Source: Martinezella rhizogenes
GTDB lineage: Bacteria > Pseudomonadota > Alphaproteobacteria > Rhizobiales > Rhizobiaceae
Reading direction: 5' to 3'
Assembly (NCBI RefSeq): GCF_007002745.1
Contig: NZ_SGNY01000007.1
Span: 1 to 64,000, forward strand
Length of the DNA stretch: 64,000 nt
Made by a program: the position numbers and the translations under genes. The notes under the pieces were generated by a model, which was given only the letters and a program-made list of their open reading frames with translations, did no database searches and was not told the origin of the DNA. Of the stretch, positions 8,646-41,492 are shown one piece after another (position 1 is the first letter of the stretch; every line of letters starts with the position of its first letter).

Positions 8646-10913
8646 TTAAATGGGAATGGAATGCGCTGCAGCAAAGCGTAACAACACCTCGCGCCCGCTT
8701 TCCAGCGAATTATGATCGTCAAGCGCGGCATTCAACTCGTCGGCAAGACGTGCCGCGTCCAGCCCGAGCAGCATGGCCTTGACCGGACCGATTGCCGTTG
8801 GCGACATGGAAATCGACCGGAAACCGAGACCGATCAGCGCCATGGCAGTCAGTGGCTTGCCCGCCATCTCGCCGCACAGCGTGACCGATGTGTGGTGCTT
8901 TTCGCCGGCGCGAACGATATCACGCAGAATGCGCAGGAATGGCTTGCCGAGATTGTCGAAACGATCCGAAACCCGGGCATTGCCACGATCGACCGCCATG
9001 GAGAACTGGAACAGGTCGTTTGAACCGACGGAAACGAAATCCACCTCCTGCATCAGCTCATCGAGCTGCCACATCAGCGACGGCACTTCCAGCATCGCGC
9101 CGAATTGCAGCTTTTTCGGCAGCGCATGGCTGAACTTCGAAAGATGCTGCACTTCCTTCTGCAGAAGATCGCGTGCCGCCCGTATTTCGGACACTTCCGT
9201 CACCATCGGCAACATCATGCGCAGCTCCGCACCGGACGCGGCGCGCAGCAGTGCGCGCATCTGCGTGCGCATCAGGCCCGGACGGTCAAGCGACAGGCGA
9301 ATCGCGCGCCAGCCGAGTGCCGGATTTTCCTCTTCCTGGCCGCGCATATAGGAAACGACCTTGTCGCCGCCGATATCCAGCGTGCGGAAGGTGACGCTCT
9401 TGCCCTTGGCCTGCCGCAGAACGGAGCGATAGAAAGCCTCCTGCTCCTCGCCCTTCGGCATGTTGGAAGCGATCATGAATTGCAGCTCGGTGCGGAACAG
9501 GCCGATGCCGTCGGCGCCGGATTCCTCCAGCTGCGGCAAATCCACCAGCAGGCCCGCATTCATCTTCAGATTGACCTTCTGGCCATCCTTGGTGATCGGC
9601 TCGACATTGCGCAGCGCACGGAACTGCTCCTGCCGCTTGGCACGCAGGCGAACTTTTTCTTCATAGGCACGCTGCAGATCCGACATCGGGCGCAGATGCA
9701 CCTGACCGTCATCACCATCGATGATGATCGGATCGTTGTTTTCCGCCAGCGCGACGATGCCGGCCGCTTGGCCGATGATCGGAATACCCATGGCGCGCGC
9801 CACGATAACGACGTGGCTCGTCACCGCGCCGTCTTCGAGCACCAGACCGCGCAGTTTTTCACGCGGGTAATCCAGCAATTCGGCAGCGCCCATGGCGCGT
9901 GCCAGAACGATGGCGTCGAGCGGGAAATCCTGCTCCGGTCCGCGCCCGCCAAAACCGATCAGCTGACGCAGCAGCCGGTTGGCAAGATCATCGAAGTCAT
10001 GCATGCGCTCGCGCAGATAAGGATCGGTCAGGCGCATCATGCGCGCCTTGGTGTCGCTCTGCACTTTCTCGACCGCCGCTTCCGCCGTCAGGCCGTTGCG
10101 GATCGCCTCTTCCATGCGCCGCACCCAGCCCTGATCGTGGGCGAACATGCGATAGGTCTCCAGAACCTCGCGGTGCTCACCTTCGGTCGGCACGTCGCGG
10201 CGCTGCAACATGTCATCGATCGACAGGCGCAGCGAGCCGATAGCATCGGCAAGACGGCGGATTTCCGTATCCGCGTCCTCGTTCAGCAGGTTGGTGACGA
10301 CAATGCGGGGATCGTGCAGCACGACGTGACCGAGACCGATGCCTTCGCCATAACCATCGCCATCGATGGTGACGGCGCGCGTCAGGTCCAGCTCCACACC
10401 GGGGCGGGTGATCTTTTTCAACTCGCCGCTCGCCACTATTTCAGCGATAAGCATCGCGGTTGTCTCAAGCGCTTCAACTTCATCCTCCCGGTATGTTCGG
10501 CTGGCCTTGTTCTGGACCACAAGAACGCCAAGAGTGCGACCGGAGCGCAAAATCGGCACGCCGAGGAAGGAATGATAAATTTCCTCACCGGTTTCAGGAA
10601 GATAGCGGAATGCGGGATGCGCCTGCGCATCGGAAAGATTGAGCGGTTGAGCGGAAGCGGCAATGGTGCCGACAAGACCTTGCCCCATTTTCAGCTGGGC
10701 AAGATGCACAGCATCCTTGTTAAGACCTTCGGTGGCGTAAAGCTCCAGCACGCTGTCGGAACGCAGCACGTAGACCGAGCAAACCTCCGCCACCATGTTG
10801 CTGGCAATCTGACGGACGATCTGGTCCAGACGATCCTGCGGTTCAAGGTGCTCCGCCATCATTTCGCGCAGCCGCTTGAGCAGGACGCGCGGACCTGCGG
10901 AAAGGTCTCTCAT
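8646..10913 (-). CDS. ptsP: PTS-Ntr enzyme I (PEP-protein phosphotransferase)
   Basis: A 755-residue EI-Ntr that takes phosphate from PEP and passes it to NPr and then EIIA-Ntr, a regulatory relay tied to nitrogen and potassium status rather than sugar uptake. The N-terminal GAF domain (about 15-160) marks it as the Ntr type. It is followed by the EI HPr-binding region, the phosphohistidine swivel domain with H367 in SHVVIVARAMG, and the PEP-binding barrel with the catalytic Cys in TLCGEMAG. Length is typical. It sits between lysC and prfA. Confidence 0.95.
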   Translation of the reverse strand: MRDLSAGPRVLLKRLREMMAEHLEPQDRLDQIVRQIASNMVAEVCSVYVLRSDSVLELYATEGLNKDAVHLAQLKMGQGLVGTIAASAQPLNLSDAQAHPAFRYLPETGEEIYHSFLGVPILRSGRTLGVLVVQNKASRTYREDEVEALETTAMLIAEIVASGELKKITRPGVELDLTRAVTIDGDGYGEGIGLGHVVLHDPRIVVTNLLNEDADTEIRRLADAIGSLRLSIDDMLQRRDVPTEGEHREVLETYRMFAHDQGWVRRMEEAIRNGLTAEAAVEKVQSDTKARMMRLTDPYLRERMHDFDDLANRLLRQLIGFGGRGPEQDFPLDAIVLARAMGAAELLDYPREKLRGLVLEDGAVTSHVVIVARAMGIPIIGQAAGIVALAENNDPIIIDGDDGQVHLRPMSDLQRAYEEKVRLRAKRQEQFRALRNVEPITKDGQKVNLKMNAGLLVDLPQLEESGADGIGLFRTELQFMIASNMPKGEEQEAFYRSVLRQAKGKSVTFRTLDIGGDKVVSYMRGQEEENPALGWRAIRLSLDRPGLMRTQMRALLRAASGAELRMMLPMVTEVSEIRAARDLLQKEVQHLSKFSHALPKKLQFGAMLEVPSLMWQLDELMQEVDFVSVGSNDLFQFSMAVDRGNARVSDRFDNLGKPFLRILRDIVRAGEKHHTSVTLCGEMAGKPLTAMALIGLGFRSISMSPTAIGPVKAMLLGLDAARLADELNAALDDHNSLESGREVLLRFAAAHSIPI

Positions 10914-37218: not shown

Positions 37219-38265
37219 TCAGAGCGTTGCGAGCAACCGGTTGGAGAGGGCCCCACCCGATGCGGCCTGCATGGAGACTTTGGTTTCCACCGCGTCGATG
37301 ATCGTATCGCTGAAATCGACATTGGTGAGTTCGAGGATATTCGACAAGCCACCGGGCGAAAACACATTCACTTCCAGTATCTTGTCACCGACGATATCGA
37401 GCCCGACCAGAAACATGCCGTCCTCCACGAGCTTCGGCCGCATCATTTCGGCAAGTGCCACGATGTCGTCCGTCACCTTCACGGCTTCCGCCGTGCCCTG
37501 GGCGTGGATGTTCGAGCGCAGATCGCCTTTCGCCGGCACACGGCGGAGTGCGGCATATTTGCCGTCCCGCATCAGCGGCCGGCCATTCATCATGAAGAAG
37601 CGGATGTCCCCGTCCTTCGCGGCCGGCAGATAGGCCTGCGCGATCAGATAACCCTCAAGGCTGACCGCCTCGAAAATCTGGTTGAGATTGGTCTCCTTAC
37701 TGGAACCGATCTTGAAGACGTTCTTGCCGCCGGAGCCCTGCAGCGGCTTGACGATGACGCCCTTGGGATGTGCGTCAGCAAAGGCACGGATTTCCTCGAC
37801 ATTGCGGGAAATGATCGTGGTCGGCCGGACGATTTCGGGAAAGCTCTGGAAATAGAGCTTGTTCTGCGCCAGAGCCAGACCTTCCGGATCGTTCAGCACC
37901 ACGACGCCGCGCTGTTCGGCAAGCCGCCCGAACAGAATGCCGGCATGCACCGCCCATGGCCGCGTCGTCTGGTCAAGCGAGGGGTCGTTGCGCAACATCA
38001 GCGCATCGATTTCCTCGACATCCATGGTCCGCCGCTCCAGCGCCTTGTCCTGAAGCGTGGAATGGAACGTCTCGCCTTTCTTGATTTTACCTTTCGGCAG
38101 CACGGTTGCATGAATGGTCAGGCTGTCATCTGAACGCAGGGTAAAATCCCCGGGTGTCAGATAAACCACCTCGTGGCCACGATTGAGTGCGGCCATGGCC
38201 AGCAGGCCTGTGGCGTAATTCGGCCCCTCGGTTTCGATGGAATTGACGAAAAACGCGATGCGCAT
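37219..38265 (-). CDS. GshB-like ATP-grasp ligase
   Basis: A 348-residue ATP-grasp enzyme resembling prokaryotic glutathione synthetase. The N-terminal part (MRIAFFVNSIETEGPNYATG) leads to the ATP-grasp region: glycine-rich loop KPLQGSGGKNVF (about 184-195), DIRFFMMNG, and the Mg/ATP strand GLDIVGDKILEVNVFSPGG near the C-terminus. Such enzymes join a carboxylate to an amine by an acyl-phosphate intermediate. It starts at 38265 behind AGGAGGGG; the open frame runs to 38592 but that part lies inside the upstream gene. It is third in an operon with a DUF1704 metalloprotease-like gene and an amidohydrolase, so a role other than glutathione synthesis is likely. Substrate unknown. Confidence 0.85.
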   Translation of the reverse strand: MRIAFFVNSIETEGPNYATGLLAMAALNRGHEVVYLTPGDFTLRSDDSLTIHATVLPKGKIKKGETFHSTLQDKALERRTMDVEEIDALMLRNDPSLDQTTRPWAVHAGILFGRLAEQRGVVVLNDPEGLALAQNKLYFQSFPEIVRPTTIISRNVEEIRAFADAHPKGVIVKPLQGSGGKNVFKIGSSKETNLNQIFEAVSLEGYLIAQAYLPAAKDGDIRFFMMNGRPLMRDGKYAALRRVPAKGDLRSNIHAQGTAEAVKVTDDIVALAEMMRPKLVEDGMFLVGLDIVGDKILEVNVFSPGGLSNILELTNVDFSDTIIDAVETKVSMQAASGGALSNRLLATL

Positions 38266-38275
38266 GAAGCCCCTC

Positions 38276-40153
38276 CTATAATGTTGCCAGTTCGGCAATG
38301 GATAATCCCGCCCGTATTTTCTCCAGCCGCTCATTGGCCTTGGCCGGCAGCAGAAATGCGGGTCTGATACCCGGCGGACGCAAAAGGCCGCGCAGGGCCA
38401 GTTCCTCCATGACCGGGAAATGTTGCGCGGCGATCTTGCCCATCCAGAATGGATCAAGCGCCCCGCCCCTGCGCAGATGTTCCAGAACCTCGGCCAGCCC
38501 GCGCAGATAAATCGCATCCTTCGAAAGACCGCCGCCGCGATAGATGCGCAGCACCATGTTGAAGGCGCCTGCCTCGTCGAAACCGTGATCACGGGTCATG
38601 ATGCGGAAGGTCTCAACGAATGTCGCGCCATCGAGCATGGTGGCACAACCGACGACACGGCCGGCAATCAGCCGCAGGCGCTCACGCGTCATGCCACCGG
38701 CCAGATGTTCCGCCAGCACCGCCAGCCCTTCCTGCACGCCCTCATAACCGGAAAGGCCGGTGCGGAAGAGCCGCAGGCCCTGAAACGAACCGTTGAAATA
38801 GGTGAGAAGATGCACGCCGATCTCATGCGACAGCAGTGCTTCGACACGGCGCTGTTCCATGACCGTGTGGCGGGAAATCAAGAGCTTCTCGCCCGTCACC
38901 ATCAGGCCGGGCGGCAGGTCGTCGCGGATTTCGACGCGAGCCTTGAATTCCGGTTCTTCCGCCAGATAGGTCTCGACCATCTCGCGCGATTTTCTGGCGA
39001 CCGCGTAACAGTCCACCGTGGCGATTTCGCCGCTTTCCTGGGCGCGTGGGCAATCCTCAAGCACACGAAGCGCCAGCGTCAGGAGCGCGGGTTCGACGGC
39101 GCCATAGAGGGCGCGTGAAAAATCGGTGAAGGTGCGATGATGCAGGTTCGCAAGCATCGTCAGTTGCAGGTCGATCTCCTGCTGTTTCTCCCGGTAGAGG
39201 TGATAGAGCACCGGGTCTTCCAGATGATCGAAAACGACGGAATAGAGCTTGCGTTTCTGCTCCTCGACATCAACGCCAAGCGGCCGGTAAAGCAGGCGTG
39301 GCGCAAACTGAAAGCTGCCATCGCGAAACTCCTCGAAGGCCCGGCGGGCATTGATTGGCGTAACCGACAGAAGAAAATCGAAGGATGAAACGATCTCATC
39401 CACCGAGCGGTCGGCACGCCGGACGGCATCGACAAAGGCCTTGCGGCCAAGCGCCCGGTGGCTGGTGACCTTCAGCGCATCCATACCGGCGGAAAATGAC
39501 GAGAAGGCCTGCAAACCCGCATCGAAAAGATCGGCAATCATCGTTTCGCGCAGACCGGGATAATCGGCACCGGATTCCGGCTGCCGATAGATCGGCGCGA
39601 AGCGCACGCTGATGCAGGGAAAATCCAGACCGGTATTCTGAAACCTGAGGATCGGATCGGATTCCGGTTCCGGCCGGGTGATACGCGGCGTGCGAAACCG
39701 CACTTCGGCATCACAGACCGCCTTGATGAAGACCCGGCGGGCTTTCTGCGTTTCCGGTTCTGAAGTCGCTGAAACGGAAACCTCATAATGCGGCAGAAAG
39801 GGGGAGTCGTCGGCCAACAGAATATCGTGTTCCAGTTCACCGATATCGAGGACGATGAAGGCGCCGAAACGCTGCAGCATGGCGGCGCCCACAGCCTCTA
39901 TCAGCGGTGCGGCCTCCTGAATGGTCGAAGCGATGAGATAGGATGCATGGGCGGCGGCGATATCGCGCGCAGCAAGGTCTTTCGTACCTCCCGTCAGATG
40001 CAGGCAGAGGAACGGCAGCGGCCGGTCGATGTGCAGCCTGCCGTTTTTTCCGACATCCCGGCGGATAGCCTTGCCGCCCTCCAGGCAGGCGACGACATCA
40101 TCCACCAGGTCGACGATCGGAGAAGGCTCGCTGCGGGCGGAGGAAACACTCAT
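38276..40153 (-). CDS. DUF1704/QEGLA-motif protein, MATCAP-like metallopeptidase
   Basis: A 625-residue protein of the family labelled flavohemoglobin expression-modulating QEGLA motif protein (TIGR02421, DUF1704). The C-terminal half has a zinc-protease signature: HEIGVH (H443, E444, H448, an HExxxH motif) followed by YEGVQEGLAVLAEH with E475 as probable third ligand. Eukaryotic DUF1704 proteins include MATCAP, a tubulin tyrosine carboxypeptidase with the same HExxxH and EGLA elements. A carboxypeptidase role is therefore plausible but unproven in bacteria. Residues 1-270 are a distinct domain without recognised motifs. The ATG at 40153 overlaps the upstream stop (ATGA), and the ATP-grasp gene follows 10 bases after its stop. 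Confidence 0.85.
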   Translation of the reverse strand: MSVSSARSEPSPIVDLVDDVVACLEGGKAIRRDVGKNGRLHIDRPLPFLCLHLTGGTKDLAARDIAAAHASYLIASTIQEAAPLIEAVGAAMLQRFGAFIVLDIGELEHDILLADDSPFLPHYEVSVSATSEPETQKARRVFIKAVCDAEVRFRTPRITRPEPESDPILRFQNTGLDFPCISVRFAPIYRQPESGADYPGLRETMIADLFDAGLQAFSSFSAGMDALKVTSHRALGRKAFVDAVRRADRSVDEIVSSFDFLLSVTPINARRAFEEFRDGSFQFAPRLLYRPLGVDVEEQKRKLYSVVFDHLEDPVLYHLYREKQQEIDLQLTMLANLHHRTFTDFSRALYGAVEPALLTLALRVLEDCPRAQESGEIATVDCYAVARKSREMVETYLAEEPEFKARVEIRDDLPPGLMVTGEKLLISRHTVMEQRRVEALLSHEIGVHLLTYFNGSFQGLRLFRTGLSGYEGVQEGLAVLAEHLAGGMTRERLRLIAGRVVGCATMLDGATFVETFRIMTRDHGFDEAGAFNMVLRIYRGGGLSKDAIYLRGLAEVLEHLRRGGALDPFWMGKIAAQHFPVMEELALRGLLRPPGIRPAFLLPAKANERLEKIRAGLSIAELATL

Positions 40154-40980
40154 CGCCGCGACCCCAGGCATTTTTCGAGAACCGGCTGAAGGGCAGCGAT
40201 CGTATCACGGATATCCGATATCACCCGTGTGTCCGGTCTTCCCGTCCACTCATCCATGAAGAATTTCTTGAACTCGATCGCAATCGCGCAGCCGTTTTCG
40301 GCAAAGCGTTCGTGGATGAAGCGGGTCTGTTCCCCTTTACCCTGAAACGCCACGTTTTCGCGAACATCAAGGCGTCGACCGCCGATGGTCGCTGAGGCGA
40401 AATGATAACCGACAGCACTGACCACATCGCTCCAGCGGCTGCGATCCATGGAAAATGTACCGATATTGATATCGGGCGCTTCCGCCTGCGCCGTCGCAGG
40501 CGCGGCAGCGCCCTGCCGGCGATGATTATAGCTGTGCACGTCCAGCACCACGAACGCACCGTGCCGGCGCTCCACCGTCGACAGAACCGCCTCCAGCATC
40601 GCATAATAATCGTCGTGGAAATCGAGCGATTGCCGGAGCGCTTGTTCCGCCGGCTCCTCGTTCCAGACCTCAAGCCCCCAGGATTGTTCGGGCTTCAGGT
40701 AGATCGCCTGATCGGCAGCGCGGTTGAGATCGATTTCGAAGCGAGAATGATGAGCGACGAGACGATTTGTCAGCCCCGAAATCATCTCGCCGGTGAAGGG
40801 GTCTTCCTCGCGCAGCCTCTGTTCGGCTGAAAGAGCCATGAGCCCCGCCACTTCCGGGCGAATGAAATGGCCGTCATGAATGGCCGTGCCGACAACGGGC
40901 GAGTTGCCGAATTCGATCGACCAGAAACCCTTGTTTTGGTTATGACCGTAATGTTCGCCGTCGCTGTGTCTGGCTGCCAT
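40150..40980 (-). CDS. N-formylglutamate amidohydrolase-like enzyme
   Basis: A 276-residue member of the N-formylglutamate amidohydrolase (HutG-type/FGase) family, zinc hydrolases that cleave N-acyl amino acids. Family landmarks: AIHDGHFIRPEV, HHSRFEIDLNRA, VLDVHSYNHRR and the C-terminal IAIEFKKFFMDEW. There are no histidine-degradation genes nearby, so the true substrate may be another acyl or peptidyl amide. The ATG at 40980 has a strong GGGGAGG four bases upstream; the longer frame to 41073 adds non-family residues. It leads a three-gene operon. Confidence 0.87.
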   Translation of the reverse strand: MAARHSDGEHYGHNQNKGFWSIEFGNSPVVGTAIHDGHFIRPEVAGLMALSAEQRLREEDPFTGEMISGLTNRLVAHHSRFEIDLNRAADQAIYLKPEQSWGLEVWNEEPAEQALRQSLDFHDDYYAMLEAVLSTVERRHGAFVVLDVHSYNHRRQGAAAPATAQAEAPDINIGTFSMDRSRWSDVVSAVGYHFASATIGGRRLDVRENVAFQGKGEQTRFIHERFAENGCAIAIEFKKFFMDEWTGRPDTRVISDIRDTIAALQPVLEKCLGSRR

Positions 40981-41270: not shown

Positions 41271-41492
41271 ATGGAAAAGACCGAAACGCGCAAACTTGCG
41301 GAAGAATATCTGCGACTTGGCGGCACACGTCAGGTGATGATCGACGATAACAAGACCTTCGTGCGCCAATGGGATCAGGAACCGGCAGACGCCGAGACAT
41401 TCTGGCAAACGCACATCGAAAATCTCGAGGCCGAACGCCGCAAGGACGTGGAATTTTTCCTGCCCTCCGTGAATTCGGACAAGGACGACTGA
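41271..41492 (+). CDS. Small charged protein of unknown function
   Basis: A 73-residue soluble protein, rich in Glu, Asp and Arg, with predicted helices (EKTETRKLAEEYLRLGG; PADAETFWQTHIENLEAERRKDVEFFLPS). No signal peptide or membrane segment. The ATG at 41271 has AAGGAG ten bases upstream; the frame is open further left but without a better site. I do not recognise a named family. It is followed after 18 bases by a PfpI-type gene and preceded by an exact EcfG promoter, so it is probably made in the general stress response. Confidence 0.72.
   Translation: MEKTETRKLAEEYLRLGGTRQVMIDDNKTFVRQWDQEPADAETFWQTHIENLEAERRKDVEFFLPSVNSDKDD

Follow-up and report, generated by a model that had tools for sequence, protein, structure and literature searches.

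Background

The tails of tubulin are modified by a set of enzymes that work in opposition (TTL/TTLL, MATCAP and CCP), of which the CCP enzymes belong to M14. The ligases of this set are ATP-grasp enzymes according to PMC4431377, and PMC10499314, which treats the roles of the tubulin tail enzymes, reports that MATCAP/TMCP enzymes cleave C-terminal tyrosine and glutamate from tubulin tails. In this paper we analyse a stretch of 64,000 nucleotides from Martinezella rhizogenes (Rhizobiaceae; assembly GCF_007002745.1, contig NZ_SGNY01000007.1, positions 1 to 64,000), in the following called the window, which carries an operon of three genes: an amidohydrolase of the N-formylglutamate amidohydrolase (FGase) family, a two-domain metallopeptidase related to MATCAP, and an ATP-grasp ligase resembling the glutathione synthetase GshB. 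This trio draws on the same enzyme superfamilies as the tubulin tail set but forms a single bacterial operon. It recurs in the same gene order in distant bacterial phyla, often close to genes for ion channels and ion transporters, and we tentatively prefer to read it as a cycle of peptide ligation and hydrolysis tied to ion and osmotic balance, probably acting on a small glutathione-like peptide, a reading that we regard as possible rather than probable.

Each of the three proteins has described counterparts. MATCAP/TMCP (KIAA0895L, KIAA0895), the eukaryotic tubulin carboxypeptidases, share with the gene 2 protein the fold, the HExxxH motif, the glutamate of EGLA and a KD-x-VYL-x-G stretch, whereas the gene 2 protein is bacterial, is joined to an FGase-like or apparently live FGase domain and has a ligase in its operon. 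Bacterial GshB has the fold and the ATP/Mg residues of the gene 3 ligase, which differs from it in the loop after the Mg residues (FSPGG as against TSPTC), in falling under the curated GshB cut-offs, in an extra C-terminal tail and in its presence also in genomes without a match to glutamate-cysteine ligase. The gene 1 protein shows the family and motifs of HutG/FGase amidohydrolases but, by score, is not a histidine-pathway enzyme. Finally, the operons of RimK-related ligases, which contain a 7TM-inactive-transglutaminase and a zinc protease, likewise combine an ATP-grasp ligase with peptidase partners, but the peptidase families and the ligase subfamily are different ones. The 2009 amidoligase survey by Iyer and colleagues reportedly may mention part of the trio neighbourhood. 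In the open-access literature (subscription papers not being covered) we found no description of the trio, and no described bacterial role for the MATCAP family.

Results and Discussion

Operon layout and the MATCAP-like metallopeptidase

The three genes are tightly packed and all run leftward, and a ribosome-binding site, AGGAGG, precedes the ATG of gene 3 and spans the edge of the gap that separates it from gene 2. This arrangement, with its ATGA overlap, ten-base gap and Shine-Dalgarno site, is as given in a preliminary description of the window that was made from the letters alone. The features are the following:

40150 to 40980, minus strand: gene 1 (P0001, 276 aa), FGase-type amidohydrolase (PF05013, E 9e-29)
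38276 to 40153, minus strand: gene 2 (P0002, 625 aa), two-domain DUF1704/MATCAP (QEGLA) metallopeptidase (PF08014, E 6e-96; TIGR02421 above cut-off)
37219 to 38265, minus strand: gene 3 (P0003, 348 aa), GshB-like ATP-grasp ligase of the PRK12458 class (GSH-S_ATP, E 8e-55)
40150 to 40153, minus strand: ATGA start/stop overlap of genes 1 and 2 (sequence)
38266 to 38275, minus strand: ten-base intergenic gap between genes 2 and 3 (sequence)
38309 to 39334, minus strand: MATCAP-like catalytic domain, residues 274-615 of the gene 2 protein (Pfam PF08014; fold match to human MATCAP)
38810 to 38827, minus strand: HEIGVH, the HExxxH metal/catalytic motif (H443, E444, H448), invariant and aligned with HEIGTH of MATCAP
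38729 to 38731, minus strand: E475 in QEGLA, the putative third ligand of the metal, invariant and aligned with the EGLA glutamate of MATCAP
39419 to 40153, minus strand: N-terminal FGase-like domain, residues 1-245 of the gene 2 protein, probably dead (profile-profile and fold match)
37222 to 37242, minus strand: conserved C-terminal tail of the ligase, N342-L348, ending LATL (tail count across loci)

The C-terminal half of the gene 2 protein matches PF08014 (MATCAP), which we take to be the family once called DUF1704, with 321.9 bits against a cut-off of 27 (residues 274-615), and the protein exceeds the cut-off of the NCBIfam family QEGLA, TIGR02421 (453.9 against 338.65 bits). An AlphaFold2 model (mean pLDDT 89.7) supports a MATCAP fold for this half: in a structure search, residues 261-622 matched human MATCAP (7z5g/7z6s) with Z 24.1 and a root mean square deviation of 3.1 over 287 residues, the next row reaching Z 16.5. 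A profile search of PDB sequences (E up to 1) recovered MATCAP chains only (best 2e-9), and phmmer searches of PDB with P0002 or P0001 as single queries gave no match. The profile alignment pairs HEIGVH with HEIGTH of MATCAP, as well as the EGLA glutamates of both proteins. H443, E444, H448 and E475 are invariant among 46 aligned sequences and, being aligned with the metal site of MATCAP, are predicted metal-site residues. The preliminary description had noted the HEIGVH and QEGLA motifs and likened this half to MATCAP; the invariance upholds the first point and the model agrees with the second, and of the zinc site envisaged for the four residues, their alignment with a metal site stands. By the spacing of the alignment, we would read E444 and E475 as the equivalents of E281 and E316 of TMCP1, where mutation of either glutamate cut activity strongly, as reported in PMC10499314.

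FGase and FGase-like domains

The FGase signatures previously seen in gene 1 are kept in the FGases of the trio: H35, G37, E59, D60, T63, S79, R80, D84, N86, R87, D147 and H149 are conserved at 97-100% among 86 separate and six fused FGases plus P0001. An identification of gene 1 as HutG, the N-formylglutamate deformylase of the histidine pathway, was rejected because its score lies far under the equivalog cut-off of the NCBIfam model (26.9 against 278.75 bits). The window genome holds seven FGase matches in total.

A second FGase-like domain, probably inactive, forms the N-terminal half of the gene 2 protein. Roughly the first 245 residues match FGase in a profile-profile comparison (probability 98.7, E 2e-16), and residues 35-224 match the FGase structure 2q7s (Z 12.3). 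We call the domain probably dead because equivalents of the FGase residues H35 and H149 are absent from both alignments made and the DPxT/SRxExDxNR stretch falls into a gap in one of them; the other pairs RLHID with RFEID, so that part of the SRxExDxNR motif may be present as a relic. In the structure search this domain also resembles M14 carboxypeptidases (Z up to 12.2) and poly-gamma-glutamate hydrolases (Z 11.5, 11.3 and 10.8). The latter resemblance would suit a catabolic salvage operon, whose hydrolases degrade an imported acylated or gamma-linked peptide and whose ligase re-uses a fragment, the link to ion genes being incidental; the same holds for one locus (L079) in which an AstE/AspA-type amidohydrolase gene (9061-10110) adjoins a two-domain QEGLA gene and neither FGase nor ligase was found by profile. 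Such salvage seems to us decidedly unlikely, since a dedicated ATP-using ligase would, in our judgement, be unusual there, and since the tandem ligases, the enrichment of ion genes and the low-salt induction described below speak against it.

In several loci (L064, L065, L067, L068, L075, L081 and, from Photobacterium, L170) an FGase is instead fused to the MATCAP domain, with the ligase adjacent. The motifs are intact in most of the six fused FGases that were aligned, L065 deviating at several positions, and judged by these residues the fused FGases look live. A LysR-type regulator gene adjoins the fused-form loci L064, L067, L068, L075, L170 and L171, and several fused-form loci also have an adjoining MaoP/DUF413-like gene; both names are annotated in L171 and were judged by eye in the others.

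The ligase and its C-terminal tail

The ligase exceeds the cut-off of the NCBIfam family PRK12458 (489.2 against 408 bits) and remains under both GshB equivalog cut-offs (219.6 against 272 and 201.8 against 299.05 bits). Its ATP-grasp character, already recognised from a glycine-rich loop, is confirmed by residues K136, K173, D290, E298 and N300. Among 96 ligases and P0003 each of them is kept in 98% or more, and in an alignment of 39 ligases all five are invariant. Carrying the roles over from GshB, we take the two lysines to bind ATP and the other three residues to bind Mg. The model of the ligase (mean pLDDT 91.6) is closest in fold to glutathione synthetase (1gsa, Z 35.0), followed by RimK (5zk6, Z 26.1).

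Database records name the protein glutathione synthase or synthetase, which, together with the retained catalytic residues of GshB, would accord with ordinary glutathione metabolism, i.e. with a second GshB beside two hydrolases for gamma-glutamyl or N-formyl compounds. We hold this to be very improbable. Apart from the scores of the ligase and of the FGase against the GshB and HutG cut-offs, another GSH-S_ATP gene, higher-scoring than that of the operon (247.6 bits), lies on contig C3 of the window genome, and 9 of 30 operon genomes have neither a GCS2 nor a Glu_cys_ligase match.

Outside the part alignable with GshB, the ligase ends in a conserved tail. The pattern N-x-x-h-x-x-[LI], which was defined after the tails had been inspected, is present in all 92 counted ligases with a two-domain partner and in none of the seven with a fused partner; the count excludes five duplicate loci, L151, and hits that score under 250 bits or are shorter than 300 aa, among them the split gene of L143. 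All of 39 aligned ligases have N342 and finish in leucine (37) or isoleucine (2), and the last three residues read ATL in 73 of 102 ligases, duplicates included. The pairing of the tail with the two-domain partner is suggestive, not proof, because the two partner groups also differ in ancestry. The tail is predicted to be partly helical (block pLDDT 88 and 82) and may represent a docking end or a structural end.

Conservation up to the final residue would also suit a code on protein tails. Under it, a protein would receive extra residues from the ligase, at its C-terminus or on a side chain, and lose them again to the MATCAP-like and FGase enzymes, much as happens on tubulin; the targets could be channels encoded nearby, or the conserved tail of the ligase itself. 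All three folds match such a code (ATP-grasp, MATCAP, and the FGase-like domain with its M14 resemblance), the tubulin tail residues removed by MATCAP/TMCP fit it, and RimK, the next fold match of the ligase, modifies a protein. The ligase is nearest to GshB, however, whose substrate is a small dipeptide; next to the operon, no target gene conserved across loci was found, a small rhizobial open reading frame (ORF) occurring in some rhizobial loci only; and the partly helical tail may be structural. On balance, we consider a protein-tail code rather unlikely. The more specific idea of a bacterial precursor to the code on tubulin tails, with an ATP-grasp writer and MATCAP-type and M14-like erasers in one operon that act on a protein C-terminus and thereby set the ion or osmotic state, the targets of which may be a channel, a transporter or the ligase's own tail, is in our estimation quite improbable.

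Tandem GshB-like ligases occur within single clusters of Planctomycetota and Gemmatimonadota (as named in the record titles), with three copies in L142, two in L144 and three, together with two QEGLA genes, in L161. Such extra ligases would suit the stepwise building of a peptide. In Rhizobium-type loci (L094, L095, L097, L099, L100 and L103) a gene that by eye is spermidine-synthase-like lies just 3' of the ligase gene.

Distribution of the trio

A scan with the two-domain alignment, in which one genome per species was searched (84,980 species), matched at least 592 stretches, 575 of which encode a relative, and the loci of the best 80 of these 575 relatives were surveyed; choosing the top scorers favours the two-domain class. 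All three families are present in 75 of the best 80 loci, and in 73 they lie colinear on one strand in the order FGase-QEGLA-GshB (L143 with a split ligase frame). The remaining five lack one family, three of them (L151, L158, L165) at a contig end, and two (L155, L162) having no FGase in the flank examined. Eleven phylum-level groups, assigned from record titles, are spanned by the 75 full loci, and the co-occurrence beyond close relatives on which the preliminary description had made its proposal depend is thereby established. Colinear loci were found in Pseudomonadota, Planctomycetota, Gemmatimonadota, Verrucomicrobia, Bacteroidota, Poribacteria, Calditrichaeota, Campylobacterota and Acidobacteriota, and a rearranged but complete trio in one deltaproteobacterial and one actinomycete bin. 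The distant loci are mostly from metagenome bins; the label is missing from two Pontibacter strains and from Planctomycetes Pan216. The three genes are also carried by pSymB of Sinorhizobium meliloti 1021 (L169).

All 13 genomes of the genus (the window's own included) contain the metallopeptidase, one of them with the DUF1704 gene in two overlapping frames (G005:C4:1324631-1326504), and no copy occurs in 8 other genomes of the order. In a phylum sample of 398 genomes TIGR02421 was found in 47, and 40 wide loci were taken around its matches. By profile, 11 of these contain FGase, QEGLA and GshB-like genes within the stretch, the FGase lying 1.4 kb off in L078 and 2 kb off in L082; L083 has QEGLA and the GshB-like gene only; L079 has QEGLA beside its AstE-like gene; and 27 have QEGLA without the trio, 26 of them with neither partner. 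The remaining trio-less locus, L053, shows a gene of the GshB family some 5 kb off. Given these 27 loci, the trio concerns the two-domain or fused class.

The ligase model also matches PsnB, a graspetide enzyme of the ATP-grasp type (Z about 19), and a system resembling those of ribosomally synthesised and post-translationally modified peptides, or an antimicrobial peptide system, might be imagined on this basis. It is hardly credible, as no precursor gene is conserved across loci (two of the three inspections considered ORFs of at least 60 aa, so that shorter ones could escape) and the three operon proteins have no hit at E 0.01 in the defence library PADLOC-DB.

Two kinds of small neighbour were rejected as part of the core. 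Secreted small proteins near L049, L078, L082 and L083 were seen in that group only. An ORF of about 70-75 aa without Pfam match, which lies beside the operon in the window (41271-41492, plus strand), gave 15 hits (some of them from one genome counted twice) in rhizobial loci only and in inconsistent orientation, and was dismissed as core or substrate; it is divergent from the operon in some Agrobacterium-type loci, codirectional in some Sinorhizobium-type loci, and also found upstream of the FGase gene in L169/L172. In Magnetococcales (L080/L168), genes for a RimK-like ligase, a 7TM-inactive-transglutaminase and a zinc protease directly adjoin the trio.

Ion-transport neighbourhood and low-salt expression

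Of 22 genomes, 11 have an MscS channel gene no further than 10 kb from the locus, where whole-genome counts lead one to expect 0.65 (p 4e-12). These 22 are what remains of 26 genomes searched after exclusion of L094 and L102, which were already known to have MscS nearby, of L126, which has none nearby, and of the duplicate G428, and two of the 22 (G113, G133) were scored as near through copies without adjacent FGase (L079, L083). AA_permease-family genes are near the locus in 7 of 30 genomes as against 0.32 expected (p 2e-8), the one at L147 also matching an SLC12 domain; for both families near and far were assigned by hand from coordinates. As a control, transporters of the RND type (ACR_tran) were counted in these 22 genomes, where their 322 matches make them 2.7 times as frequent as MscS with its 119. 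MscS was nevertheless found in the flanks of 8 and RND in those of none of 27 distant loci, and in 16 and 4, respectively, of all 93 loci, with an MscS profile that was built from some of the same loci and missed a weak channel in L167. Among the matches listed, RND is near the locus in G323, and one match in G425 could not be placed.

The 27 distant loci have 186 neighbouring ORFs, 171 of which were scanned with Pfam in two sets of 85 and 86. MS_channel is the most frequent family of the first set (5 of 85); in the second, at 4 of 86, it is level in first place with PAS, PAS_9, CBS and AAA_21. MgtE_N was matched twice in the first set and three times in the second, and CorA and AA_permease four times each in the first, a number that methyltransferase families reach as well. 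Some ion genes are intimately placed: MgtE stands between genes 2 and 3 in L146, an MscS gene overlaps the last ligase gene of L142 by 4 bases, an MscS-domain gene follows 20 bases downstream in L065, and a TrkA_C gene lies directly upstream at 12 bases in L163 and 36 bases in L164. In L079 a Na/H-exchanger-TrkA_N (Kef-like) gene is about 5 kb away. Since the trio is often near genes for ion channels and ion transporters, the peptide cycle would probably be tied to salt and ion balance. In Escherichia coli, K+ efflux through Kef is gated by glutathione, and by analogy a peptide ligand for ion transport proteins would be plausible.

Expression in Photobacterium damselae points in a similar direction. 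According to Table 2 of PMC10308900, RS17020 ('GshB') and RS17025 (QEGLA) are 38.4-fold and 27.5-fold up, respectively, in 1% versus 3% NaCl, and the authors take RS17020 to be a glutathione synthetase. From the adjacent locus tags and from a relative, Photobacterium sp. DA100, in which a GshB-like gene overlaps an FGase-QEGLA fusion gene, we conclude that this pair very probably belongs to the same system.

A proposed peptide cycle

In the cycle that we propose, the three genes would act together on amide bonds in the cytosol. The GshB-like ligase would couple an amino acid or amine to a carboxylate, and the MATCAP-like metallopeptidase and the FGase, hydrolases of different folds, would open such bonds or trim them back. 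A role as scaffold or binding module could fall to the probably dead FGase-like domain, on which the C-terminal tail of the ligase may dock. The product would most likely be a small glutathione-like peptide, or else a short peptide tail, and its level would be tied to the ionic or osmotic state of the cell (K+, Mg2+, low salinity).

Computation yielded the families, folds, conservation of catalytic residues, extra FGase-like domain, gene order, tail and neighbour enrichment. Backing for the cycle comes from the colinearity, the fusions, the three conserved catalytic sets, the tandem ligases, the ion link, the low-salt induction and the missing glutamate-cysteine ligases. Several observations weigh against it. 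The distribution of the trio is patchy, as just 3 of 289 genomes in a sample of the class have a close ligase, and Vibrio sp. HDW18 has an FGase-QEGLA fusion without adjacent ligase. Half of the genomes surveyed for MscS (11 of 22), the window's own among them, have none within 10 kb; TrkA_C near the locus is a weak signal (at least 4 of 30 genomes, by eye among the matches listed, against about 1 expected by rough estimate); and the ion families and long-contig genomes were chosen after the neighbourhoods had been inspected. The low-salt data are limited to a single species in a single paper, the identity of the system being inferred, and the absence of glutamate-cysteine ligase is soft, because all nine genomes concerned are metagenome bins by title.

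The interpretation of the preliminary description, namely the addition, removal or trade of a C-terminal or side-chain amino acid on a protein or small peptide, with cleavage of an N-acyl group by the amidohydrolase, is partly supported: that the operon adds, removes or trades an amino acid is soundly inferred. Its remark that the databank name 'flavohemoglobin expression modulating' does not explain the partners also holds. New compared with that description are the second FGase-like domain, the setting among ion-transport genes, the induction at low salt taken from the literature, and the ligase tail.

Conclusions

The pairing of FGase-like domain and ligase tail offers a direct and cheap binding test. 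A gene read in the literature as the glutathione synthetase of a low-salt response is suggested to belong to a different system. For the MATCAP family, the trio represents a bacterial setting, in which a dedicated ligase and ion-transport genes are associated with the metallopeptidase.

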